Notes: a model not told the origin generated them from the letters alone. Positions 3,276 through 29,223 are shown, counted from the first letter of the stretch. The stretch is DNA of 64,000 nucleotides from Eubacteriales bacterium (GCA_030539335.1 JAUNSG010000001.1:62001-126000), one strand, 5' to 3'. A program made the numbers and translations.

Positions 3276-4310
3276 ATGAGTAACAGTAGTTTAGTATCGT
3301 ATACAAAACTCAGCCCAAATCATTCCGGGCAGAGAACACATAGTATTGATAGAATCACACCGCATTGTGTCGTTGGTCAGCTTAGTGCTGAAGGCATCTG
3401 CGGTTGTTTTACAAGCACATCCAGACAGGCAAGCTGCAACTATGGCATTGGTACGGATGGGCGTATTTCACTGTGCGTAGAGGAAAAGAATCGTTCTTGG
3501 TGTTCTTCCAGTAATGCTAACGACCAGCGTGCAGTCACAATTGAGTGCGCAAGCGATATGAGTGAACCGTATGCAATGAACAGTAAAGTTTACGCATCTC
3601 TCATCAACCTCTGCGTGGATATTTGCAAACGAAATGGTAAGAAGAAGCTTTTATGGTTTGGTGATAAAACCAAGACCCTCAATTACTCCCCGAAGTCCGA
3701 CGAGATGGTTATCACCGTTCACCGGTGGTTTGCGAATAAGTCATGTCCGGGTAATTGGTTGTATGCAAGATTGGGAGACCTTGCAACGCAGGTAACAAAT
3801 AAACTTGGAGGAAACACTGGAACTACTCCTGCAACTCCAGCGCAGCCCACAACTACAAATAAGAATTTCCCGTCAGTTCCGTTCACTGTTGAGGTTCTTA
3901 TTCCCGATTTGAATATTCGTAAGGGTGCAGGGATGAACTATGCCACAACTGGCAAGTACACCGGGAAAGGCGTATTCACTATTACTGCTGTTCAGAACGG
4001 TTGGGGCAAACTGAAATCTGGAGCTGGCTGGATTTATCTCGAAAACGCATCCTATGTCAAGATTGGTTCAAGTGTTAAGGGAACATCTACTCCTTCTGCC
4101 CCCTCTTTCTCTCCGTATAAGGTAAAAGTCACTGCGGACGTTCTTAATATCCGTAAAGGAGCTGGTACAAATTACGGAACCAATGGTTCTATTCGAGACA
4201 AGGGTATCTACACCATTGTGGCAGAATCATCCGGCAAGGGCGCTGCTAAATGGGGTAAGTTGAAGTCCGGCGCAGGATGGATTTCGCTGGATTATTGCAA
4301 AAAGGTGTAA
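3276..4310 (+). CDS. N-acetylmuramoyl-L-alanine amidase with two SH3 modules
   Basis: Predicted to cut the amide bond between MurNAc and L-alanine. The start is ATG 3276, placed after GGAGGAG; the frame is open slightly further upstream but without a better site. The N-terminal amidase_2-like domain (about 1-175) has candidate zinc ligands H30 (in ITPHCVVG), H149 and C157 (in NKSCPGNW). A Thr/Pro/Ala linker leads to two SH3_3-type wall-binding repeats (about 200-270 and 280-344), each with DLNIRKGAG or DVLNIRKGAG and WGKLKSGAGWI. The position between tape measure and distal tail genes is unusual for a lysis amidase, so a tail-borne lysin is possible. The SH3 pair is almost the same as in the endolysin at 22288-23847. 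Confidence 0.85.
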   Translation: MSNSSLVSYTKLSPNHSGQRTHSIDRITPHCVVGQLSAEGICGCFTSTSRQASCNYGIGTDGRISLCVEEKNRSWCSSSNANDQRAVTIECASDMSEPYAMNSKVYASLINLCVDICKRNGKKKLLWFGDKTKTLNYSPKSDEMVITVHRWFANKSCPGNWLYARLGDLATQVTNKLGGNTGTTPATPAQPTTTNKNFPSVPFTVEVLIPDLNIRKGAGMNYATTGKYTGKGVFTITAVQNGWGKLKSGAGWIYLENASYVKIGSSVKGTSTPSAPSFSPYKVKVTADVLNIRKGAGTNYGTNGSIRDKGIYTIVAESSGKGAAKWGKLKSGAGWISLDYCKKV

Positions 4311-4332
4311 CAGTTACATAGCAATGTTTGCG

Positions 4333-4357
4333 GGGATAATCGCATGACGGTTATCCC
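4333..4357 (+). terminator. Intergenic stem-loop
   Basis: GGGATAATCG pairs with CGGTTATCCC (one G-T pair) around CATGA, followed by a weakly T-rich stretch. It lies between the amidase and the coiled-coil gene. It may be a weak terminator or an RNA processing or stability element. Confidence 0.4.
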
Positions 4358-4395
4358 TCATTCATTGTTCTCAGCAATATATCGGAGGAAAAGGA

Positions 4396-4704
4396 ATGAA
4401 TTTAAAGCGAAAAACTGAAATGCAGGAAAGACGTATCTTATCCATGCAAAAACAGATTGAAAAACTGACAAAAGAAAACGAAACTCTGCGTTCTAAGAAT
4501 CAAGAGTTATCAGATAAAGAGGCTCGATATCAAGTTCAGCTTGACATGGTTGATGAGTTAAGACGTGAGTTCACATCTGGTATTGCGGAAATGAACACCG
4601 TCAAAGAACAGTACCAGCAGGCGATATACGAAGCTCGCCAGATGAAGAAAGATTTTTCCAAAAAGTTTAAGCCGCTCATCAAGCAGCTCAAATCATTTGA
4701 ATAA
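4396..4704 (+). CDS. Small coiled-coil phage protein
   Basis: 102 residues after a GGAGGAAAAGGA ribosome binding site. Almost the whole chain is a charged heptad-like coiled coil (EKLTKENETLRSKNQELSDK and similar). There is no signal peptide, membrane segment or cysteine. It lies between the amidase and the distal tail gene, so a structural, assembly or scaffold role is possible. I do not recognise a named family. Confidence 0.6.
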   Translation: MNLKRKTEMQERRILSMQKQIEKLTKENETLRSKNQELSDKEARYQVQLDMVDELRREFTSGIAEMNTVKEQYQQAIYEARQMKKDFSKKFKPLIKQLKSFE

Positions 4705-10820: not shown

Positions 10821-13800
10821 ATGGATATATTAGTTAATGTCGCCAATCAAAAGCTGAAAATTGCGACAAACTTAAAAAGCCTTGTCGCAGGTACTCAGGA
10901 GTTCGTCCGTTTCGTATTTAATACGAGCGGTGACTGGGATGGTTTAGCCACATTCGCACAGTTCAGACAGAACGGTGTTGCATATAACCAGTATCTCGAT
11001 GACGACAAAGCTGCCTATCTCCCCTCCGAAATCGGAGTCGGAACATGTACTGTTATGCTGTACGGCAGCAACGGTAATACGATTGCCACAACCAACTATC
11101 TCACATTAACGATTGATGAGAATATCCTTGTGTCCGATGCACAAAGTACGGACATCTCCTTATCGCTGTATAATCAGCTTGTAAGCAAGGTAAACTCACT
11201 CTCCACTTGGAATGAGCAGAACGCTGCTGACTTAATCGCTGTAGATAAAGACTTACAGCAGCAAATTAACCAGAAAGCCTCAGCTACAGACCTTACAACG
11301 GAAATCGCCAGAGCTAAAGCTGCAGAAAAGGCAAATGCTGATGCGATTGCTTTGAAAGCAAGTCAGGCTGATGTTGACGACCTGACTATTAAGGTTACTC
11401 AGTTAGAGAATAATGAGGTTGTTGCTGAATTGATTTCCGAGGCTGTTACTGCTGAAATGGAAGAATACATGTCCAGCGGTCAGCTTGCAAGTATGACAAT
11501 CGCAGACGGAAGTATTTCTCGTAAGAAAGTTAATGCAGACTTAGAGAATACGCTTGTAAAGGCTGATACTGCTATGCAGCCAAGTATGTATGACCCACAG
11601 GGGTTGAAAATTGATGTCTACGCATATGCACAGGGCAAAGCTGATACTGTTCAGAAAAATTTGAACGATGTAAAAGCTGAATTGCAGGACGGATATAAGC
11701 TTACAGATACTCTCCAGTACACCAAAATCGGCGATGCTATCAGGGGTGCTGTTACACTGTCAAGAACATATGCTCAGGCTCTTCTGGCAGATTACAAAGC
11801 ATTCACAATCAAGATTGTAGACGTACTCCCTGTTACTGGTGAAAGCATGACTTTCTATCTCGTACCGAATAAGGCTCAGACCGGATATGATAAATACTGG
11901 TGGGTTACGGATGACAATGGCGATTCCAAATGGGATGTATTCGGAAGTGCATCTACACTTGTTGTAACGGAACTTCCGGAGATTGGAGATGAGGATACAG
12001 ATTACATACTGAAATCCAACGGTGGGTGTCTGTATTACAAATATATTGACGGTGTGTGGGAAGTAGTTGCCGGTTCTCTGGCATACGTTTCCGCTATTCT
12101 TCCGAGTGTCGAAAATGGTAATGAATTTACCGACTACTATATTGTACAGGAAGAAAGCGGTTCCTATCTTCATTACCGCTTTGTTAATGGCTCTTACCAT
12201 GTTATTGGCGGCGACAGTTATACGAAGGATGAAATCAATGCGTTGCTCTCCGCAATCAGCGATTCTATTTCTGCCATAGAAAGCAAAGCGAACGCTACCA
12301 GCGGAGAAGTGGATTTGATTCAGGCGAAGGTAGACGAACTTGGCAACCTTGTGTCTGACGTAACGGAAGGCGATGATGGCATCACCGTCCATTACAAAGA
12401 CGGAACATCTAAAGAGGTGCCTACAAAGGACACTACCATTACGGTTGAAGACGTAAACAGGACGGATTCCGGTATTGCTATCGTCTATACTGATGGTGAT
12501 ACAAAAGAGATTGAAATCTCTGGCGGTGGTGGTGGTACAACTACTTCCGGCTCTGCCTCCATTACAAGGGTGACGGATTCCTCTACACAATGTGTATATG
12601 GAGATTCATGCACCATTGAATTTATCCTTAGCGCACTGGATTCCTCTGGCGATTATGTCGGCGACGGAACGGCGACTTGGTATGTCAACAGTGTAAAGAA
12701 AGCAACGAGCACCGCTTATAATAATGCAACCACATCCTTTGATATTGGACAGTATTTAAGTGTTGGTACGAATACCGTTAAGGTTTCTGTCAGTGTTGAT
12801 ACAGGCGGCGATACACCTACCACTGTCACGAAATCTTGGACAGTTAATGCAGTAAATATGTACGCTGTATGGGATTATGACGATACAACTGTAAATGAAT
12901 CTGATACGGTTGCTATCCGCTGGACTCCTTACGGAGACTTAGAAAAGACAACACATCTGATTATTGACGGCGTGGAAGTCGCAACCAGCACTACGACACG
13001 TTCCGGCGTTCAGCAGTATGTGACAATCAACAAACTCTCCCACGGAAGCCATTTGGCGGAACTGTACTTAACCGCAACCATCAATAAGACGGAAATCCGT
13101 TCCGCATCTATCTTCCATGATATGATGTTCGCAGACAGTGGAAATACAACGCCTATCATCTCCGTATCTCTTGGCACATACGAGATGACGCAGTACAACA
13201 CTTTACGGATTCCTGTTGCGATTTACACACCGGGCAGTTTAACTTCTGATGCTGTTCTTTCCGTTGGTGGTGTTGAGGTAGCTGAATGGAACGACATTGA
13301 CCGGACAGTCCATTACTGGAACTACACTCCGAGCGAATCTGGTACAAAAGTGCTGACAATCTCAAGTGGCGCAACTGCGAAAACAATTACACTGACTGTA
13401 AATGAACTGGATATTGATAATGAGGAAGTATCCGGCTATGCATTCCGAATGAAAGCAAGTGATATTGCCAGCAATGAGGCTCTGCGTGCATTTACAAATA
13501 ACAATATCGGTGTTAGCTTTTCTGAGAATTTTGACTGGAATAACGGAGGTATCAAGACCGAGTACGATGACGATGGAAATATCCGTCAGTTCATCTGCGT
13601 AAAAGCAGGAACTACCATGACCGTGAATTATCAGCTATTCGGCGATGATGCCCGTGTAAACGGAAAAAGCTTTAAGACCATTTTCAAGGTCACAAATTCA
13701 CGGGATTACGATGCTTCTTTCTTGAACTGCGTAGCAAATGGCATCGGTATCTCACTTGGTGCAAACGAAGGTAAGATTACCTCTGAACAGAATACAGTAA

Positions 13801-16800
13801 GCGTGCAATACGCAGAAGATAGCTATGTGGAGTTTGAGTTTGATGTGCGTAAGGCAAACGAATACCGCTATTTGCAGACATATCTTGATGGAGTTATCTC
13901 CAGCACGATTGTGTATGCAGCGGATGATAACTTTACGCAAACAAATAAACAATATATTACCATTGGCTCTGCTGACTGTGATGTTTATATCTATATGGTG
14001 AAGGCTTATGAGTCCTCTCTGTCAATGGACAACCATATTGAAAACTTTATTGCCGATGCGCCGAACGCACAAGAAATGGTAGAACGGTACAACAGAAATG
14101 ATGTTCTGCTTGACGCTGGTTCTACTGGAGCTATGACCTCTATCTCATATAGTAAACTGGCAGCTCAGGCACCAGATAGCCGTATCCATTTGTGGGACAT
14201 TCCACGAATGACAGATGGTAAGAAAGATTATGTAGATGGCTGTTCTTACCAGCAAATTTATACCAACGGAGACCAGAGACATCAGATTTCTGCTGAAGGA
14301 GTTCGTATCTGTATTCAGGGTACTTCTTCTGTAAACTATAAGGATTCTGGTGCAAATACCGACGGTAACTTCCTTCAGGGATTTACGGATGGCAACGGAA
14401 ACCATATTGATACATACAGTATGACCGATGAATCTATCCCGGTAAGTTATTTCAATACCAAAGTAAACGTGGCTTCTTGTGAGAATATCAACAATATGTG
14501 CCTTGCCGAATGGTATAACCGCTACCAGCCATATCAGACATTATGGAGAAGAAAGAATCCACAGGGACGTGACTGCATGGAACTCCATATGGGCGTACAG
14601 TTCATCAAAGACCAGTCTCATGGGTTATTCAGTGATGACGAATACCATATGTATGCAATCTGCAATATGGGTAACAGTAAAAAGAATCTATCTGTATTCC
14701 ATGACGCAGATAACCCTCTTGAATGCTGTGTTGAGTCTCTGGACAACAACTCTAATTACTGCCTGATGATTCCGAATTATGATGAATCCGGTAATCAGGT
14801 TCCGTTTGATGTTGCGCAACTTGATAGTGAGGATTTCTTTGAATTCCGTTATCCGGACAGCCCGACCGATGCAATGAAAAACGCATTCGTGGAATTTGTT
14901 ACATGGATGACCGAAAGCAATCCGTCTCTTGCTACTGGCAATAAACTGCCGTCTGCTGTGACTTATGGAGCATATACTTTCAAAGGGCATGGTAATGGCG
15001 GTACAGAGGTTTTGGCTGGCACAACCATTGACACTTATGCAGGAACCTATACGCACGATACCTATGAGTACCGTATGGCAAAAATGCTGAACGAGTGCGA
15101 AGACCATCTTGTTATGGATGCTATGGTGTACCACTATGTTTTTGTTGAAGAACATACGATGGTGGATAACGTGTGTAAAAATACATTCTGGGGAACGGAA
15201 GATTTACAGCACTGGCAGCTTTGTAAGAACTACGATAACGACACCGCTGACGGAAACGATAATAACGGTAAGTTGATTGTTCCGTTCGGCTGTGAAGGTA
15301 TGGATATGCTGACCGACACCCGTGATGTATTTAATGGAAAATCCGCTGTATGGTGGGGCTTTATCTATGGACTGTATGATGCAAGACGTGTTATGTGGCT
15401 TAACAGAGAAACTGCAGGAGCATGGGATAAAGATGCGTACCTCTCTTTCGTGAAGAGCTATCAGGACATCCTGCCGGAACGTGTCTGGAATCAGGATTAC
15501 TGGTATAAATACCTGCGTCTCTATGAGCAGAGCAGCGTAACGACTTACCTTGATATGTTGGAGGGCGGCAAGAAAGCTCATCAACGTGAGGCATTCGTTA
15601 CCAATAACATGTATTACATGGCGTCACAGTATATGGGTACTGCTTGTACTGGCAAGTCCATCACGATGCGTGGATATACTCCGTCCACATGGGCTGGTGT
15701 TGAACCAAAGTCAGAAGTAACTGTAATGATGTACAACAAGGGATATATTGTCGTACAGATTGGTAACATCTATAAGCAGTTAAAAGCTGAAAAAGGTAAA
15801 TACTATACTATTTCCTTCAGCGATTCTGGCGATATGAATGATACCGTTATCAATATTCACGGTGCAAATCTGGTACAGGCTATCGGAGATATCTCCTGTC
15901 TGTATGTCGGTCGTACCGACTTTGCGAGCGCCACAAGGCTGCGTTCCATTCAGATTGGCTCTATGGTCGAGTGGTATTCTAATCCTAACCTTACAGAAGT
16001 CAGTTTCGGAACGAATACGATGTTGGAGTATCTGTATATTCAGAACTGTCCTAATGTCGTACAGTCGCTTGACTTGACCGGATGTCAGGCTCTTCGTGAA
16101 CTTGATATCAGAGGAAGCGGATTTACAGGCGTTTCATTTGCACTCGGCGGGCTGATTGAGAAAGCATATCTCTCCTCCCCTGCTGCTTTGAATATGCGTA
16201 GCTTGTACAATCTGACAGATGAAAACCTGTCTCTGGAAAGCTATAATAATCTGACATCTCTCCGCTTAGAGGATTGTGATGGGATTGACTCCCTTGCATT
16301 CATCACGAATGCTACAAACCTTGCTCGTGTGCGTATTCTCGGTATCAACTGGGCAATCGCAGACACTACGGTTCTGAACAGAATGCTGCTCCTGTTAGGT
16401 TTGGATGAAGATAACTACAACGTGGATACGTCTGTCCTCGCAGGTTCTGTCTATGTCAGTGGTGCAATCCGAAATCAGGAGCTTCTTAACTATGCAAACG
16501 CATGGGAGAACCTTGTTGTTACTTATGATTCGTCCAATCTCGTTACGCAGTATCTGGCTACCTATGTCAATGCCAATGGAGATGTTCTGTGTGAGATATA
16601 CGTTGACCGTGGCTCCAATGCTCCAGACCCCGTAGCAACTGGTGTGATTTCTACGCCTACACTGAATAGTGATGCTCAGTATGATTACACATGGAGTGGA
16701 TGGGATAATTTGAGTGAAATGCTGTCCGCAAGGACGATTACGGCAACCTATGATACAACAGTGCGTACATACACCGTAACTTGGTATTCCAGAGCAGGTT

Positions 16801-18407
16801 TGTCCCTCGGTTCCGTAGAGGCTGAGTATGGTAGCGAAGCTGTGTACTCCGGTGATATCCCGACAAACACTGAGGAAGAAGGCATGTATATTTACAATGT
16901 CTTTGCCGGATGGAATAAGAGCACCGGATATATTACCGGCGATACTGATGTTTACGCTATCTGGGATAGGGCGGAACTTCCTTCCACTTCTAAGGATTTA
17001 TCCGAGATGAGTCCGGCTGAAATTTATGCGGTTGCAACATCCGGCAGAGCAGGAAGTTATTTCTCTCTGAAAGATTACACTGACATTGTACTTGGACACG
17101 ATTTCGATTTTGAAAATGTGGAAAGTGTAGTGCTGTGTGAAAACAAGGTTTTTGACGGAGCGACTGCAATTGACACGAATATCGCTCTGTTTGGAGCAGA
17201 TTCCCCATCGTTCACGCTTGCGATTGATTTCAGATTTTCCGATACAACTGCTAATAACACGTTGCTCTCCTGCTTTGAAGAGGACGGGGCAGAAGGTTTC
17301 CGGTTGCGTTACAGTTCTTATCCTCAGATTCAATGGGGCGATAAGACCAGCAACTTTGGATATCAGAAATACCGTGACATCGTTGTAATCCGCCATAGAA
17401 AAGGCGATGATAAACTGTATATTTACGCTTCCAACAGCACCACTCCCGGCAGCAGCGGAGTATTTGACACTTCCATCGTGTCCTTTGAGTCAACGAGAAC
17501 CCGAAGCACAGAAACAGATGCGACCATTACACTCGGAGCAGTCAAATATCCAGATGGAGGGTATGACTATTATGGTTCCGGTGTTATCTACTGGTGTAAG
17601 CTGTGGTATGACGATTTGGGGGCAGATAATGCAAAGCAGTTGGCAAGCTGGTATCACGAGACTTTGCGCATGGAATATTGCGGTACAGAACGCTACCGTA
17701 TCGGTACATCCTCTACTAAATGCAATGCTTCATTTATCGCAAACAACGAGTTGACCGACAGACTTTACCGGATGAATAGCCAAAATGTCAATGAGGGCGG
17801 TTGGAACGACAGCCTTATGAGAACATTTGTAAACGAGCGTGTATATGATGCGCTTCCGACTGTGTGGAAAGCAATGATTAAAACCGTGCGTGTACCTACC
17901 TCAGCAGGTTCGCAGTCCTCTGAAATCGTGTATGCATACGATAATATTTATCTGGAAAGCTACACGGCGCTGTTCAACAACACTTCCGAGCCGTATGTCA
18001 ACGAGAGTTCATATATCTCTTGGTACACAAGCGATATTCGCAGGGCGAAATACAGAGGCTTCATCATTCCAGACGATGCGTCTTACTATACAGGCGCTGA
18101 TGAACCATCCACGGTATCATCGAATATTGTGAAGGTTGGAGATGTCTGGAAAGAAAGTACGACCAATGTATGCCATATCTTGATTACTGCGGAGGACTTT
18201 GCAAGACTTCCTTGGACAACTACCAACGGGAAACATGGAACATACACACAGGATGGGAAGCATGTTTGGATATCCGCCAACAACTGGTGGTTGCGTTCTC
18301 CATATGTCGGCAGCTCCGCGGGCTTCTGGTTTGTCGGCAACGGCGGTTACGGCAGCACCAACATTGCGTCCTACGCGTATGGCGTCTGCCCCTGCTTCTC
18401 AATCTAA
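10821..18407 (+). CDS. Giant tail adhesin, target (variable) protein of the DGR
   Basis: 2528 residues, start ATG after AGAGAGGAATGAG. Apparent layout by sequence pattern: tail-attachment N-terminus (1-110); coiled or helical stretches (120-210, 465-515); Gly linker then Ig-like beta domains (565-860); concanavalin/LamG-like region (870-1095); a large domain with EGVRICIQGTSSVNY that may be CotH-like (1095-1610, weak); leucine-rich repeats (about 1705-1870, SLDLTGCQALRELDIRGSG); InlB B-type repeat (1974-2050, FAGWNKSTGYITGDTDVYAI); a second LamG-like region (2090-2280); and a DUF6273/C-type-lectin-like domain (2287-2528). The last domain carries WWLRSP and ends in the variable repeat. Such domains in DGR targets display the diversified residues as a binding surface, so this is the probable receptor-binding tail protein. 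Confidence 0.85.
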   Translation: MDILVNVANQKLKIATNLKSLVAGTQEFVRFVFNTSGDWDGLATFAQFRQNGVAYNQYLDDDKAAYLPSEIGVGTCTVMLYGSNGNTIATTNYLTLTIDENILVSDAQSTDISLSLYNQLVSKVNSLSTWNEQNAADLIAVDKDLQQQINQKASATDLTTEIARAKAAEKANADAIALKASQADVDDLTIKVTQLENNEVVAELISEAVTAEMEEYMSSGQLASMTIADGSISRKKVNADLENTLVKADTAMQPSMYDPQGLKIDVYAYAQGKADTVQKNLNDVKAELQDGYKLTDTLQYTKIGDAIRGAVTLSRTYAQALLADYKAFTIKIVDVLPVTGESMTFYLVPNKAQTGYDKYWWVTDDNGDSKWDVFGSASTLVVTELPEIGDEDTDYILKSNGGCLYYKYIDGVWEVVAGSLAYVSAILPSVENGNEFTDYYIVQEESGSYLHYRFVNGSYHVIGGDSYTKDEINALLSAISDSISAIESKANATSGEVDLIQAKVDELGNLVSDVTEGDDGITVHYKDGTSKEVPTKDTTITVEDVNRTDSGIAIVYTDGDTKEIEISGGGGGTTTSGSASITRVTDSSTQCVYGDSCTIEFILSALDSSGDYVGDGTATWYVNSVKKATSTAYNNATTSFDIGQYLSVGTNTVKVSVSVDTGGDTPTTVTKSWTVNAVNMYAVWDYDDTTVNESDTVAIRWTPYGDLEKTTHLIIDGVEVATSTTTRSGVQQYVTINKLSHGSHLAELYLTATINKTEIRSASIFHDMMFADSGNTTPIISVSLGTYEMTQYNTLRIPVAIYTPGSLTSDAVLSVGGVEVAEWNDIDRTVHYWNYTPSESGTKVLTISSGATAKTITLTVNELDIDNEEVSGYAFRMKASDIASNEALRAFTNNNIGVSFSENFDWNNGGIKTEYDDDGNIRQFICVKAGTTMTVNYQLFGDDARVNGKSFKTIFKVTNSRDYDASFLNCVANGIGISLGANEGKITSEQNTVSVQYAEDSYVEFEFDVRKANEYRYLQTYLDGVISSTIVYAADDNFTQTNKQYITIGSADCDVYIYMVKAYESSLSMDNHIENFIADAPNAQEMVERYNRNDVLLDAGSTGAMTSISYSKLAAQAPDSRIHLWDIPRMTDGKKDYVDGCSYQQIYTNGDQRHQISAEGVRICIQGTSSVNYKDSGANTDGNFLQGFTDGNGNHIDTYSMTDESIPVSYFNTKVNVASCENINNMCLAEWYNRYQPYQTLWRRKNPQGRDCMELHMGVQFIKDQSHGLFSDDEYHMYAICNMGNSKKNLSVFHDADNPLECCVESLDNNSNYCLMIPNYDESGNQVPFDVAQLDSEDFFEFRYPDSPTDAMKNAFVEFVTWMTESNPSLATGNKLPSAVTYGAYTFKGHGNGGTEVLAGTTIDTYAGTYTHDTYEYRMAKMLNECEDHLVMDAMVYHYVFVEEHTMVDNVCKNTFWGTEDLQHWQLCKNYDNDTADGNDNNGKLIVPFGCEGMDMLTDTRDVFNGKSAVWWGFIYGLYDARRVMWLNRETAGAWDKDAYLSFVKSYQDILPERVWNQDYWYKYLRLYEQSSVTTYLDMLEGGKKAHQREAFVTNNMYYMASQYMGTACTGKSITMRGYTPSTWAGVEPKSEVTVMMYNKGYIVVQIGNIYKQLKAEKGKYYTISFSDSGDMNDTVINIHGANLVQAIGDISCLYVGRTDFASATRLRSIQIGSMVEWYSNPNLTEVSFGTNTMLEYLYIQNCPNVVQSLDLTGCQALRELDIRGSGFTGVSFALGGLIEKAYLSSPAALNMRSLYNLTDENLSLESYNNLTSLRLEDCDGIDSLAFITNATNLARVRILGINWAIADTTVLNRMLLLLGLDEDNYNVDTSVLAGSVYVSGAIRNQELLNYANAWENLVVTYDSSNLVTQYLATYVNANGDVLCEIYVDRGSNAPDPVATGVISTPTLNSDAQYDYTWSGWDNLSEMLSARTITATYDTTVRTYTVTWYSRAGLSLGSVEAEYGSEAVYSGDIPTNTEEEGMYIYNVFAGWNKSTGYITGDTDVYAIWDRAELPSTSKDLSEMSPAEIYAVATSGRAGSYFSLKDYTDIVLGHDFDFENVESVVLCENKVFDGATAIDTNIALFGADSPSFTLAIDFRFSDTTANNTLLSCFEEDGAEGFRLRYSSYPQIQWGDKTSNFGYQKYRDIVVIRHRKGDDKLYIYASNSTTPGSSGVFDTSIVSFESTRTRSTETDATITLGAVKYPDGGYDYYGSGVIYWCKLWYDDLGADNAKQLASWYHETLRMEYCGTERYRIGTSSTKCNASFIANNELTDRLYRMNSQNVNEGGWNDSLMRTFVNERVYDALPTVWKAMIKTVRVPTSAGSQSSEIVYAYDNIYLESYTALFNNTSEPYVNESSYISWYTSDIRRAKYRGFIIPDDASYYTGADEPSTVSSNIVKVGDVWKESTTNVCHILITAEDFARLPWTTTNGKHGTYTQDGKHVWISANNWWLRSPYVGSSAGFWFVGNGGYGSTNIASYAYGVCPCFSI
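18273..18394 (+). repeat. DGR variable repeat (VR)
   Basis: 122 bases encoding residues 2485-2525 of the adhesin, aligned without gaps to the template repeat at 19362-19483. There are 17 differences, and all fall on template adenines (34 adenines present, so half are changed). They alter 13 codons: residues 2495, 2498, 2500, 2501, 2504, 2506, 2508, 2510, 2512, 2513, 2515, 2518 and 2520, turning Asn (and one Thr) into Tyr, Ser, Ala, Gly, Phe, Thr or Ile. The first 30 bases and the GC-rich end GCGTCTGCCCCTG are identical in both copies; the latter is the likely initiation-of-mutagenic-homing region. Identity stops right after it, 13 bases before the gene ends. Confidence 0.97.
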
Positions 18408-18425
18408 AATGTAACTTATAAACAA

Positions 18426-18459
18426 TAGCTCTTCCATTGTGAGAACGATGGGAGGGCTA
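18426..18459 (+). promoter_or_regulatory. Hairpin downstream of VR: DGR target element or terminator
   Basis: A 12-bp stem (TAGCTCTTCCAT with ATGGGAGGGCTA, two G-T pairs) around a 10-base loop, starting 31 bases after VR ends, followed by TTTCCATTT. In the Bordetella phage BPP-1 DGR an inverted repeat just after the VR is needed for efficient homing. This stem is longer and further away, so it may equally be the transcription terminator of the adhesin gene. A second small stem (GGCGG/CCGCC) lies at 18473-18487. Confidence 0.5.
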
Positions 18460-18512
18460 TTTCCATTTATCAGGCGGCTTGCCCGCCAAATATGAAACAA
18501 AGGAGTGATAAT

Positions 18513-19310
18513 TTGTCGGTTCTACGAAGCAAACGAAGGATTGCACAATCAGAATTTGAGAATTCATTTACTGAGCTATACCAGTTCAGCATGGTGCAGA
18601 CTTCAAAAATCCCAAAGCGTAGGCAGAAATGGTTATGTACTGACATTGATAACCGAATGAACGCATTATACCGGAGTTTGATGCAGGTCAATGATGCTTA
18701 TTTTCGTAACAGGAACGAACGTGCTGAATATGCGGCGAGCGTTGCGACACAGCATATTAACAGCCTAAATGCCCTAGAAAAGCCACTGATGGTTTTGTGG
18801 GATGTACAGAAGTATGAAACAGGAACTATGGCACACTGGGTTTCAAAAATCAAACGGGAGGTCTTTTTATTGAACCAGATGCATGACGAAGAAAATGTGG
18901 AATTTGAAGTATCTATCTTAGACTGGCGGGCGATTGATAATGCGAACTTCCTCAAGAATATGTCGGAACTTCATCGGTATACACATGGGAAAGTTGCCAA
19001 CGCATATACCGCATATGACGGCACAGAGGGTTCTCTGCTGATTTCTCTTGTGAACGATGCGTTCTATGAACTGGTTCTCTCAAATAAGAAAGTTCCTGAA
19101 ACCAAAGATGAATATGAACAACGTAGGCGGCATATTTCCAATGCGATAACATACCTGAAAGAGATGAACCGACCAATGCTCTTCTATTTTAACCTGATGC
19201 AGTACAGCGAAAGGGTTATGAACGAATGGTCAGAACTCTTAGTGAGCGAACTAAAAATGTTAGCTTCGCTCCAGAGGTCTGATAAGGAGAGGTTTAAGTC
19301 TCTCCGCTGA
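18513..19310 (+). CDS. avd: DGR accessory variability determinant (Avd-like), double-length
   Basis: Avd proteins are small four-helix bundles that form a pentamer, bind the template RNA and the reverse transcriptase, and are needed for cDNA synthesis. The start is TTG 18513, seven bases after AGGAG; ATG 18492 has no ribosome binding site. The resulting 265 residues are about twice the family norm. Residues 20-123 look like the classic Avd pattern: helix, SKIPKRRQ, further helices and a basic C-terminal helix. A second block, 199-253, aligns with 69-123 without gaps (shared P91/P221, Y101/Y231, M106/M236, W109/W239, E116/E246), which suggests an internal duplication that lost a helix. Position between VR and TR matches the mtd-avd-TR-brt order of BPP-1. 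Confidence 0.75.
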   Translation: MSVLRSKRRIAQSEFENSFTELYQFSMVQTSKIPKRRQKWLCTDIDNRMNALYRSLMQVNDAYFRNRNERAEYAASVATQHINSLNALEKPLMVLWDVQKYETGTMAHWVSKIKREVFLLNQMHDEENVEFEVSILDWRAIDNANFLKNMSELHRYTHGKVANAYTAYDGTEGSLLISLVNDAFYELVLSNKKVPETKDEYEQRRRHISNAITYLKEMNRPMLFYFNLMQYSERVMNEWSELLVSELKMLASLQRSDKERFKSLR

Positions 19311-19361
19311 CTATCAAGGATATAGCATCGAAAGATGATTATATTGGGTTATATTTTAGGC

Positions 19362-19483
19362 TCCGCCAACAACTGGTGGTTGCGTTCTCCAAATGTCGGC
19401 AACTCCACGAACTTCTGGAATGTCAACAACAACGGTAACGGCAACAACAACAATGCGTCCAACGCGAATGGCGTCTGCCCCTG
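19362..19483 (+). repeat. DGR template repeat (TR)
   Basis: 122-base non-coding copy of the VR lying between the Avd-like gene and the reverse transcriptase. In the VR reading frame it is a run of Asn codons (AAC/AAT at nearly every variable site) and ends in TGA. AAY codons give the widest amino-acid set when both adenines are randomised. It carries no start codon or ribosome binding site of its own. Its transcript should be the template for error-prone cDNA synthesis. Confidence 0.97.
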
Positions 19484-19792
19484 ATTCGCATACATTAAGT
19501 AACCATGTATAAGGGCGAAAGTGATTCCTCCGGGAATATGTATGAGAAGGAAAATGTAACCCTCTGTATGGATTCCATACAGTAAATAAAGTACGCATCT
19601 GTTTCAAGATGCGTGTGCTATGAAAGCATTCCGTATGATTCTGGACGTGATTACAACGCCTTAATCGGTAGGCGAACTGGTATCCATTGGCTGTCCAGAC
19701 ACCAGTTGTGCAGAATCATTTGCAGCCGAAACCAACAGCCGATAAACAGACTGCACGGAGCAATATCATCACGAATGAAAGGGACGAAAACT
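19484..19792 (+). ncRNA. Structured spacer of the DGR template RNA (TR to RT)
   Basis: 309 bases between TR and the reverse transcriptase start. Two perfect 8-bp hairpins stand close together: CTGTATGG/CCATACAG (19564-19582, 3-base loop) and ACGCATCT/AGATGCGT (19593-19614, 6-base loop). The reading frame of the RT is open from 19613, but no ribosome binding site precedes the early ATG. In BPP-1 the RNA downstream of TR folds and is required for priming and Avd-RT binding; the same role is inferred here. RNA ends cannot be placed from sequence. Confidence 0.6.
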
Positions 19793-21085
19793 ATGACAAA
19801 ATACCAACGGGCAAAAAGACGGATTGCCCGTGACAAAGAAGCTAAACGTATAAAGCATAAGGTTCTGTATTCTGAGAACGATGATTTCAGCAAAGTTATG
19901 ACTATGCAGCATTTATGCTCTGCCCTTCAGAAATGCAGAAAAGGTGTGAATTGGAAAGGAACAGTTCAAGATTATACTGAACATGCCATCGTGGAAATGC
20001 ACCACGCATATTCTTCCTTACATAATGGAAAATTACCGAACCTTACAAGTACAAGCAGAATCGTTCTGTATGAGCGTGGAAAGAAACGGGAGATTGTACC
20101 TATCACTATCCGTGACAGAATGATGCAACGTGTACTCTGCGACCATGCACTCGTACCTGTCCTAAAGAATCGGCTGATATACGACAACGGTGCAAGCATG
20201 AAAGATAAAGGCGTAGAATTCACACGCCAGCGATTGAATCTACACCTACAAAAAGCAGTCAAAGAATATGGTTCAGAATTCTATGTCCTGACTTTTGATT
20301 TCAAAGGTTTCTTTGACAGCATTCCGCACCGTACCTGTCTTGATGTGTTGAAAGACAGTTTCAATGACAGATATATTCAGGGGCTTACGATGGCGGTTAT
20401 TAAGTCTTATGAGAAAGCAACGATTCACTGTATTTCCGACGAAGAATTGAGAAATAAAAGGCTCCGTATACTGAACAACAATCAGTCGAAAGGCATCTGT
20501 CTTGGAAGTCAAGTATCGCAGATTATGGCTCTCGCCGCACCGAATAAATTAGACCATTTTCTAAAAGACCAGTGCGGTGTGAAACCATATATCCGTTATA
20601 TGGATGACGGAATTGTTATCTCAGATAGCAAGGTATTCTTACAGAACCTGTTGGAAAAGATGAAGGAAATCTGCGATAAGCTTGGGCTTACATTTAACAC
20701 CAAGAAAACAAGGATAGTCAAAGCATCCAGAGGATTCGTGTTTATGAAAGTCCGTTACAGAGTTACTCCGACCGGGAAAATTGTACGCACTCTGACAAGA
20801 GCTGGTATTGTACGGATGCGGAGAAAACTAAAGAAATTTCGGAAGATGGTTGATAACGGCAAAATCTCATTGGACGATGTGTATAACTCTATGCAGTCAT
20901 GGTTGGCTCATGCCGATGTCGCCCTCTCCTATCACACAAAACGCAGTATACTGAAATTATATAACCAACTATTTAACGGATACAGAATCACAAAGAAATG
21001 GGAACATATGAAGGGAGGTAAAAACGGTGAATTATTACAAACTGATAGATGGGGAGACCTTCGTTGGGATTGCGACGCAGCTTGA
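19793..21085 (+). CDS. DGR reverse transcriptase
   Basis: 430 residues from ATG 19793 (GAAAGGG upstream); earlier ATGs at 19775 and 19613 lack a binding site, the latter lying in a hairpin. It copies the TR RNA into cDNA while misincorporating at adenines. Motif A is FDFKGFFDS (168-176), motif C is YMDD (269-272) with catalytic D271/D272. The motif before it is LGSQVSQ (237-243), the signature that sets DGR enzymes apart from group II intron RTs, which have QG-x3-SP. Palm motifs D/E follow (FNTKKTRIVK), then a basic thumb region. There is no maturase or endonuclease domain. The end overlaps the next gene by 59 bases. Confidence 0.97.
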   Translation: MTKYQRAKRRIARDKEAKRIKHKVLYSENDDFSKVMTMQHLCSALQKCRKGVNWKGTVQDYTEHAIVEMHHAYSSLHNGKLPNLTSTSRIVLYERGKKREIVPITIRDRMMQRVLCDHALVPVLKNRLIYDNGASMKDKGVEFTRQRLNLHLQKAVKEYGSEFYVLTFDFKGFFDSIPHRTCLDVLKDSFNDRYIQGLTMAVIKSYEKATIHCISDEELRNKRLRILNNNQSKGICLGSQVSQIMALAAPNKLDHFLKDQCGVKPYIRYMDDGIVISDSKVFLQNLLEKMKEICDKLGLTFNTKKTRIVKASRGFVFMKVRYRVTPTGKIVRTLTRAGIVRMRRKLKKFRKMVDNGKISLDDVYNSMQSWLAHADVALSYHTKRSILKLYNQLFNGYRITKKWEHMKGGKNGELLQTDRWGDLRWDCDAA

Positions 21086-21797
21086 TTTTCGAGAATATCA
21101 GAAGAAGCACAATATCCTTTTGGCATGTACGGAAGAAACCGCACAGTATGTCCAGTCAGAAGATACCCTGTACCACGCAAACTGGATGAAACCAGTCAGT
21201 ACAGATAACTTTCCGTATACATCAGTCGAGATGATTGCAATCGACGAAGAAGAATATAACACACTACGAGAAGCAATTGAGGCTGGTAAGGAAATTATAG
21301 TGGAACCGGATACTCCGGTAGAGGAAGAGCCTCTTCCGCCAGACCCGATTGAGGAAGTCACGATTGATTATGTAAAGACATCAAAAATCAGTGAGATGAA
21401 TAATACCTGTAATAAGGTTATTACGAATGGTTTTGATACAGTCCTCAGTGATGGAGAAAAGCATCACTTTTCTCTTACAACACAAGACCAGTTGAATTTA
21501 ATCACTCTGTCTACTTTGGTTGAAAGCGGAGAAACAGCTATCCCCTACCATGCGGATGGAGAACTCTGTAAGTTTTATTCTGCTGATGATATCGGAACGA
21601 TTATCACAACAGCAACGTCGTTTAAAACATACCACGTATCCTATTTTAATGCGTTGCGGGCTTATATCGAATCATTAGAGACTATAGAAGCTATCAGAGC
21701 TATTGTTTACGGAACACCAATCCCGGAAGAATACCAGTCTGAAGTTCTTAAAGTGCTGAATGCACAGATAGGAGTATCCGATGAAGAAAATACTTAA
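21027..21797 (+). CDS. Phage tail-accessory hypothetical protein (DUF4376-like)
   Basis: 256 residues, GTG start eight bases after GGGAGG, so translation begins inside the RT gene. N-terminal domain (1-75) with GIATQLDFREYQKKH, an acidic Pro/Glu linker (about 90-112), and a C-terminal domain (115-256) with YVKTSKISEMNNTCN and FKTYHVSYFNALRAYIESL. That C-terminal pattern resembles DUF4376-type domains found in proteins encoded beside tail fibres. A tail-fibre assembly or decoration role is inferred from context only. Coupled translation with the RT is likely. Confidence 0.5.
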   Translation: MNYYKLIDGETFVGIATQLDFREYQKKHNILLACTEETAQYVQSEDTLYHANWMKPVSTDNFPYTSVEMIAIDEEEYNTLREAIEAGKEIIVEPDTPVEEEPLPPDPIEEVTIDYVKTSKISEMNNTCNKVITNGFDTVLSDGEKHHFSLTTQDQLNLITLSTLVESGETAIPYHADGELCKFYSADDIGTIITTATSFKTYHVSYFNALRAYIESLETIEAIRAIVYGTPIPEEYQSEVLKVLNAQIGVSDEENT

Positions 21798-25712: not shown

Positions 25713-28341
<2,629 letters not shown>

Positions 28342-28733: not shown

Positions 28734-28809
28734 GGAAGTTTAGCTCAGCTGGGAGAGCATCTGCCTTACAAGCAGAGGGTCACAGGTTCGAGCCCTGTAA
28801 CTTCCACCA
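28734..28809 (+). tRNA. tRNA-Val (TAC)
   Basis: 76 bases with encoded CCA. Acceptor GGAAGTT/AACTTCC, anticodon stem TCTGC/GCAGA with loop CTTACAA (anticodon TAC), T stem ACAGG/CCTGT. Confidence 0.97.
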
Positions 28810-28811
28810 AT

Positions 28812-28888
28812 GGCCCAGTAGTTCAGTTGGTTAGAACGCCAGCCTGTCACGCTGGAGGTCGTCAGTTCGAGCCTGATCTGGGTCGCCA
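28812..28888 (+). tRNA. tRNA-Asp (GTC)
   Basis: 77 bases with encoded CCA. Acceptor GGCCCAG/CTGGGTC, anticodon stem CCAGC/GCTGG with loop CTGTCAC (anticodon GTC). It lies two bases after tRNA-Val. Confidence 0.97.
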
Positions 28889-28891
28889 GTT

Positions 28892-28932
28892 TTATTCGAT
28901 CAAGCATTTTTGCTTGATCGAATAAATTTTTC
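28892..28932 (+). terminator. Terminator after tRNA-Asp
   Basis: A perfect 15-bp stem (TTATTCGATCAAGCA with TGCTTGATCGAATAA) and a 4-base loop, followed by ATTTTTCTC. Confidence 0.9.
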
Positions 28933-28940
28933 TCAAGCGC

Positions 28941-28969
28941 TTGACATCACCGGATTTTTCCTGTATAAT
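28941..28969 (+). promoter_or_regulatory. Consensus promoter of the tRNA-Phe/Gly/Cys unit
   Basis: TTGACA, exactly 17 bases, TATAAT. This is a perfect match to the vegetative sigma consensus, 21 bases before tRNA-Phe. Confidence 0.9.
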
Positions 28970-28989
28970 ATCAAACGTTGTGAAAACTT

Positions 28990-29065
28990 GCCTCTGTAGC
29001 TCAGTTGGTAGAGCAGGGGACTGAAAATCCCCGTGTCGGTGGTTCGATTCCGCCCGGAGGCACCA
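28990..29065 (+). tRNA. tRNA-Phe (GAA)
   Basis: 76 bases with CCA. Acceptor GCCTCTG/CGGAGGC (one T-G pair), anticodon stem GGGGA/TCCCC with loop CTGAAAA (anticodon GAA). Confidence 0.97.
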
Positions 29066-29070
29066 AATAT

Positions 29071-29146
29071 GCGGATGTAGCTCATCTGGTAGAGCGCCAC
29101 CTTGCCAAGGTGGAGGTAGCGAGTTCGAGCCTCGTCATCCGCTCCA
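29071..29146 (+). tRNA. tRNA-Gly (GCC)
   Basis: 76 bases with CCA. Acceptor GCGGATG/CATCCGC, anticodon stem CCACC/GGTGG with loop TTGCCAA (anticodon GCC). Confidence 0.97.
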
Positions 29147-29149
29147 TAT

Positions 29150-29223
29150 GGTGCCATAGCCAAGCGGTAAGGCAGTGGACTGCAACTCCTTGATCCCCAG
29201 TTCGATTCTGGGTGGCACCTCCA
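29150..29223 (+). tRNA. tRNA-Cys (GCA)
   Basis: 74 bases with CCA. Acceptor GGTGCCA/TGGCACC, loop CTGCAAC gives anticodon GCA. The anticodon stem GTGGA/TCCTT has a T-T mismatch at the second pair, a small oddity. The T arm CCCAG/CTGGG is intact, so the gene is probably functional. Confidence 0.93.

Follow-up and report, generated by a model that had tools for sequence, protein, structure and literature searches.

Most descriptions of diversity-generating retroelements (DGRs) present a cassette and, next to it, the one gene on which it acts. The locus studied here lies in a 64,000-nucleotide stretch from an Eubacteriales bacterium (the window; C13:62001-126000 of the 2.76-Mb genome G000) and bears on what defines a gene as the target of such a cassette.

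The local cassette

The initial annotation described a complete prophage DGR at 10821-21085 with the gene order of BPP-1 (target with VR, avd, TR, and RT). This description held up, as all four parts are present in that order, the VR/TR differences are confined to adenines, and the prophage ends could be located. The features are given below in window coordinates.

10821-18407, + strand: target 1, a tail-module protein of 2,528 amino acids (aa) with a C-terminal DUF6273 domain holding the VR; located between a DUF859 tail protein and the lysis genes
18273-18398, + strand: VR1, with 17 differences from the TR, all at TR adenines; 3' end GTCTGCCCCTG-C-TTC, IMH-like
18424-18461, + strand: GAGA-loop hairpin with a 17-bp stem, 25 nt after VR1
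18473-18487, + strand: candidate target hairpin GGCGG-CTTGC-CCGCC, one of only three copies in the genome, each after a VR
18513-19310, + strand: double Avd with its two domains in tandem; 265 aa if TTG 18513 is the start, 272 aa if ATG 18492 is
19362-19487, + strand: TR, with 34 adenines in its first 122 nt, mostly in AAY codons; 3' end GTCTGCCCCTG-A-TTC, IMH*-like
19485-19759, + strand: structured TR-RT spacer RNA, with 7 helices and 46 pairs, 31 of them with changes on both sides
19793-21085, + strand: DGR reverse transcriptase, 430 aa, with LGSQVSQ and YMDD

The direct repeat at 18273-18401 and 19362-19490 is the sole long repeat of the region, and VR1 aligns with the TR without gaps over its whole length. 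Within a 122-nt block, all 17 differences fall at TR adenines (9 A>G, 7 A>T, and 1 A>C), as the initial annotation had stated; the probability of this arising by chance is ~1e-11. Every difference is at codon position 1 or 2. The repeats also differ at their 3' ends, with a C in the VR (CCCCTG-C-TTC) and an A in the TR (CCCCTG-A-TTC), and this C/A difference is kept in nearly all clade members, as would be expected for IMH and IMH*.

Relatives allowed us to ask whether VRs also change at other bases at a similar rate, the observation that the initial annotation named as evidence against a DGR. Two contigs of one sister phage (L061 and L062) have identical TRs and VRs that differ at 20 sites, while the remainder of their shared phage DNA (~7.5 kb) holds 10 differences. 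The L062 VR differs from the L062 TR at 16 sites, all of which are A. This outcome favors a DGR, and divergence concentrated in the VR points indirectly to diversification in nature, in the sister phage.

Both RT motifs named in the initial annotation are present, although its start at 19613 is most likely to be replaced by ATG 19793. A profile of the RT from five clade members was compared with solved structures. The best match was the BPP-1 DGR RT (8ub7, 7.6e-21), ahead of group II (maturase, 6.6e-11) and retron-type RTs. The RT also clusters with the RTs of other TR/VR cassettes in a tree of such RTs, intron and retron enzymes having been compared by the structure-profile scores. By these comparisons the RT is assigned to the DGR clade and not to the intron or retron enzymes that the initial annotation had held out as the alternative. 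A DUF4376 or tail-fiber-like gene (PHROG 1348; window 21027-21797) shares 59 bp with the 3' end of the RT gene, an overlap kept in several relatives.

The spacer between TR and RT has no Rfam match. In nine clade members it takes up a seven-helix fold in which 95% of cells are paired. Changes on both sides occur in 31 of the 46 pairs, compared to a mean of 17 in shuffled alignments (0 of 500 shuffles as high) and 9 to 15 in slid controls. Double-change cells number 87 against a shuffled mean of 26. In the BPP-1 model, RT and Avd are brought in by the spacer, which also serves to prime cDNA synthesis (PMC12875486). The covarying RNA described here fits that model and may play the same part.

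The Avd-like gene was identified as such in the initial annotation, which missed that it encodes two fused Avd domains; its most likely start is TTG 18513. The 272-aa protein matches PHROG 3206 (Avd) over two stretches, each half alone matches it (8e-4 and 1.1e-3), and the halves match one another (hhalign probability 96.8, E 2e-10). AlphaFold2 with five homologues produced two helical bundles (pLDDT 86.5, pTM 0.84); this model was used in place of one from two sequences only (pLDDT 58). For the modeled C-terminal half, structural alignment gave Z 13.5 with BPP-1 Avd (4dwl) and Z 13.2 with the Avd of the DGR RNP (8ub7). Because unrelated helical bundles in the same list reach down to Z ~12, the fold match supports the sequence evidence without replacing it. 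The N-terminal half had no separate match in the PDB list, which was filled by one domain, so its assignment as Avd rests on sequence. Taken together, we read the gene as a head-to-tail double Avd, which is atypical of DGR accessory proteins.

Avd domains were counted at ~160 RT loci. Double Avd proteins (263 to 279 aa) accompany essentially all RTs at least 45% identical to that of this DGR, and single Avd proteins (~136 aa) mostly accompany RTs below 45%. In the RT tree, a 23-row clade that includes this RT (support 100/98) has 21 members with a double Avd and 2 in which no Avd was seen; many of its members lie on contigs of 92 to 167 kb. The double Avd thus characterizes a well-supported RT clade whose members are mostly large phages. 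In some of these, a single-domain Avd occurs in addition to the double one (L168:400-1194 and 4075-4488; L173 and L174 near 12572). No published description of a double Avd was found in the literature searched, which consisted largely of journals outside subscription.

Remote targets and prophage boundaries

A search of the whole genome with the TR recovered the TR itself, VR1, and two further strong matches, each on the minus strand. The interval given in the initial annotation therefore stands as the local cassette but leaves out two further VRs elsewhere in the genome.

C17:248125-248239, - strand: VR2, at the 3' end of a 260-aa gene (G000:C17:248086-248868, - strand)
C13:18642-18752, - strand: VR3, at the 3' end of a 259-aa gene (G000:C13:18606-19385, - strand)
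window 25736-25750, no strand: attR core GCTGCCTGTGCTGCA, in the ppdK 3' end; right end of the prophage
G000:C17:221004-221018, outside the window: attL core GCTGCCTGTGCTGCA

Within the matched blocks, all 10 differences in VR2 and all 20 in VR3 are at TR adenines (P of 6e-7 and 1.5e-14), which brings the sum for the three VRs to 47 of 47. Over 110 nt in VR2 and 106 nt in VR3, no TR base other than adenine is changed (76 to 80 such sites in each), and the two patterns of adenine change are unlike each other. Both end, like VR1, in GTCTGCCCCTG-C-TTC.

The VR2 and VR3 proteins are paralogues (55% identical) with an N-terminal CPxC-H motif and a C-terminal DUF6273 domain; their zinc-ribbon matches are below the Pfam cut-off. 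The genome has exactly three DUF6273 genes, and each one is a VR gene. For the tail target, this domain (E 3e-14) is in line with the C-type-lectin-like fold with a 3' VR proposed in the initial annotation; in all three targets, Pfam assigned DUF6273 and the fold is carried over from a report that DUF6273 has a C-type-lectin fold (PMC10743442). Neither the DUF6273 targets nor the tail protein N-terminus had a PDB sequence match.

To place these genes we determined the ends of the prophage. A 15-bp word, GCTGCCTGTGCTGCA, is common to C17:221004 and C13:87736, and joining the host flanks at this core regains a normal PPDK C-terminus (...RLAAAQAALKDK) in place of a phage-derived tail. Because the shared att core restores this C-terminus, we conclude that the C17 and C13 contig ends are one prophage in the ppdK 3' end, ~123 kb long (122.9 kb if C17 and C13 abut). 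GC content is 0.37 to 0.45 in C13:1-~87.7k and in C17 from ~221.0k to its end (0.42 for the phage), compared to ~0.50 to 0.56 in flanking host DNA. Both stretches are filled with phage genes. Next to attL is a large serine recombinase (C17:220999-222711), identified by sequence inspection, which is followed by replication genes, RtcB, Thg1, an aminotransferase, a phosphoesterase, a radical SAM protein, structural genes, and lysis genes. The L061/L062 and L086 phages are integrated in the same gene. An empty site, with pstS next to ppdK, was not seen in six genus relatives, in which host gene order differs or ppdK is elsewhere, so the evidence for it is the att core together with the restored ppdK. 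Among sister phages searched for the C17-side replication gene, which would put both halves on one contig, there were two weak matches only. Five tRNA genes (Val, Asp, Phe, Gly, and Cys; window 28734-29223) lie in host DNA ~3 kb past attR and are not used as the attachment site.

Both remote targets fall inside these boundaries, at phage coordinates 27.1-27.9k (VR2) and 53.8-54.5k (VR3). The TR is 62.7 kb from VR3 and at least 89 kb from VR2 (89.4 kb if the contigs abut). The att sites, the GC content, and the PHROG neighbors place both in the phage, and the idea that they are host genes was rejected. The small targets are encoded among early genes, on the strand opposite to the tail target. 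A lipoprotein-like gene on the opposite strand (G000:C17:247635-248048), possibly a lysogenic-conversion gene, adjoins the VR2 target in this early region. GC skew across the joined phage has a single minimum at 66 to 68 kb, and all three targets face away from it. Reconstituted BPP-1 DGR shows an orientation preference (PMC12875486), which the arrangement here would fit.

As to what the small proteins do, a weak PHROG match to a Hoc-like decoration protein covers only the DUF6273 part, PADLOC gave no match, and no relatives were found in 86 same-family genomes or in a first viral scan. We tentatively suggest, at somewhat less than an even chance, that they are intracellular variable binders, e.g., counter-defense or superinfection/exclusion factors. 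Virion decoration and lysogenic conversion are possible roles.

The shared hairpin and alternative readings

Folding of the DNA downstream of the VRs identified a common element, GGCGG-CTTGC-CCGCC. With up to one mismatch allowed, this 15-mer has exactly three copies in 2.76 Mb, all downstream of a VR and in the sense orientation. The DNA between VR and hairpin is unrelated in VR1 compared to VR2/VR3, and the spacing is 74 nt for VR1 versus 44 and 45 nt for the other two. In relatives, the element lies behind the tail VR with stems that vary yet stay paired (GGTGG/CCACC, GGCGGTAA/TTACCGCT, and GGGCGG/CCGCCT), and a loop of CTTGC, CTTTGC, or CTTCGC is kept in many members, though not in all.

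A hairpin or cruciform downstream of the VR is required for efficient retrohoming in BPP-1 (Guo et al. 2011, PMC3240598); its stem is variable, its loop is sequence dependent, and together with the IMH it is enough to steer the BPP-1 DGR to a foreign gene (PMC3240598). Since BPP-1 retrohoming needs such a hairpin, with a variable stem and a sequence-dependent loop, the CTTGC-loop element is best read as a target-recognition hairpin. We infer this role because of that likeness, and only infer it because the element departs from the published pattern. Hairpins of other phage DGRs lie 4 to 34 bp from the VR and have a GRNA loop (PMC3240598), whereas the loop here is not GRNA and the distance is 44 to 75 nt. 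Moreover, the GAGA-loop hairpin is closer to VR1 and fits the GRNA consensus of phage DGRs (PMC3240598); it is absent after VR2 and VR3.

Location after stop codons and a GC-rich stem, typical of terminators, would also suit an element that ends transcription of the three genes or stabilizes their mRNA, with no part in DGR recognition. We consider this unlikely. No T-run follows the hairpin, the whole genome has only three copies of it, and the copy before avd is directly upstream of the avd ribosome-binding site. In addition, the kept loop and covarying stems are as reported for DGR target hairpins (PMC3240598).

The cassette could instead be an ordinary single-target phage DGR, with VR2 and VR3 as old gene copies (duplications or captures of the tail-gene 3' end) in which diversification has ended. 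Part of the 3' context shared by VR2 and VR3 can indeed be due to descent, as the two genes are 55% identical. Aging, though, would change all bases, but the 76 to 80 non-adenine sites of each remote VR are unchanged next to 10 and 20 changed adenines. The two patterns of change differ, and the hairpin has been kept at three sites despite different DNA between VR and hairpin. This explanation is very improbable.

A second DGR with its own TR and RT, missing from the assembly or lost, has an even slighter chance of being the source of the remote VRs: sister phages G089, G094, and G095 (155, 153, and 164 kb) do carry a second cassette away from the tail DGR, but BLASTP (E up to 1) links none of the targets of those cassettes to the remote proteins, VR2 and VR3 equal the known TR at all non-adenine bases, and no second TR or second RT related to the DGR RT was found in the 2.76-Mb genome, so a second DGR within this genome was rejected as their origin.

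Proposed mechanism and comparison with known systems

We are thus left with a ~123-kb temperate phage in which, very probably, one DGR acts on three phage genes. The most likely arrangement, which has strong sequence support, would be one RNP and one template, with any tagged locus as a recipient. The biochemical steps, modeled on BPP-1, would run as follows. The structured spacer RNA would carry the TR transcript, which RT and double Avd would bind. The TR would be copied into cDNA with errors opposite adenines, and the cDNA would replace the VR in any gene with a GC-rich 3' VR end and a downstream CTTGC-loop hairpin. Recipients would be the lectin-like C-terminal domain of the tail protein and the two small DUF6273 early proteins. 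Variation in the tail VR may alter adsorption, and variation in the small VRs would alter binding by the early proteins. The initial annotation proposed tail-fiber variants for host switching. For the 2,528-aa target this is plausible, and tail tropism switching is likely, but the proposal is incomplete in that the two small early-region proteins are also diversified, which a tail-fiber model does not explain.

A broader version of this model, which we regard as doubtful, holds that DGRs give large Clostridia phages a means of varying many genes at once. The IMH and CTTGC hairpin would form a portable tag, through which one template and a double-Avd RT keep both a tail adhesin and a set of early proteins inside the cell hypervariable, the small proteins being a diversified counter-defense or exclusion repertoire. 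As part of it, the double Avd would probably have a ring stoichiometry different from the BPP-1 pentamer. Chains of two domains cannot be assembled evenly into a ring of five, which poses a structural question for the RT-Avd RNP.

With one template, three genes, and a genome-unique hairpin on exactly those genes, what defines a DGR target becomes directly testable. The largest DGR survey states that remote targets would escape its detection (Roux et al. 2021, PMC8144416), and the hairpin offers a sequence handle for locating them. Small early DUF6273 targets also recur in unrelated phages; a single TR covers them in this phage and in three smaller ones, and sister phages have separate second cassettes for them. 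This recurrence is an argument that variation in proteins outside the tail benefits phages.

The closest functional reference is the Bordetella phage BPP-1 (mtd-avd-TR-brt), which has the same gene order, adenine mutagenesis, IMH/IMH* difference, hairpin downstream of the VR, and RT and Avd folds. It has one VR, whereas the present phage has three, two of them remote. Its Avd is a 128-aa single-domain protein that forms a pentamer, in contrast to the double Avd, and its GRNA-loop hairpin is close after the VR, as opposed to a CTTGC-loop hairpin 44 to 75 nt away.

Large sister phages took a different course. No remote VR of the main TR was found in G087, G089, G094, or G095, and three of these have a second complete cassette far from the tail DGR, consisting of a small DUF6273 target, an Avd-like protein (121 to 126 aa), a TR (~82 nt), and an RT (ORF of 348 to 476 aa).

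G089:C1:142500-147000: second cassette (L277)
G094:C1:32500-37500: second cassette (L274)
G095:C1:92500-97500: second cassette (L275)

At G095:C1:72260 (L276), a 212-aa DUF6273 gene has a 78-nt segment 91% identical to the second TR with mostly adenine differences, and on this similarity we identify it as a remote VR of the second G095 cassette.

Other phages combine more than one DUF6273 target with one DGR. In the tentaclin gut phages nd4/nd12, one DGR has two such targets, but both are in the cassette and one VR is near the 5' end of a gene (PMC10743442). In the Faecalibacterium prophages Lelie and CP11, a single DGR serves two DUF6273 targets, one large and one small, hence two VRs compared to three here, and the portion of that report consulted mentions neither a shared target hairpin nor a double Avd (PMC11792537). 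A remote small DUF6273 gene, annotated as a hypothetical protein and carrying a VR of the local TR, is also present in Roseburia phage Shimadzu, Dulem virus 34, and Acutalibacter phage Fontainebleau. All or nearly all differences between these remote VRs and the TR are at adenines, and both VRs of each phage are followed by a hairpin. The three phages differ from the present one in genome size (39 to 45 kb), in having one remote VR found, and in having a single Avd or a protein unrecognized as double Avd. Distal second VRs near counter-defense genes were noted briefly in four gut prophages (PMC12629997); the present phage has two distal VRs per TR, a likely recognition hairpin, and resolved prophage ends. 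Taken together, this is a true DGR whose cassette alone is ordinary. What is new is the combination of three targets, a genome-unique tag, and a double Avd, which extends the brief reports of single remote VRs in gut prophages.
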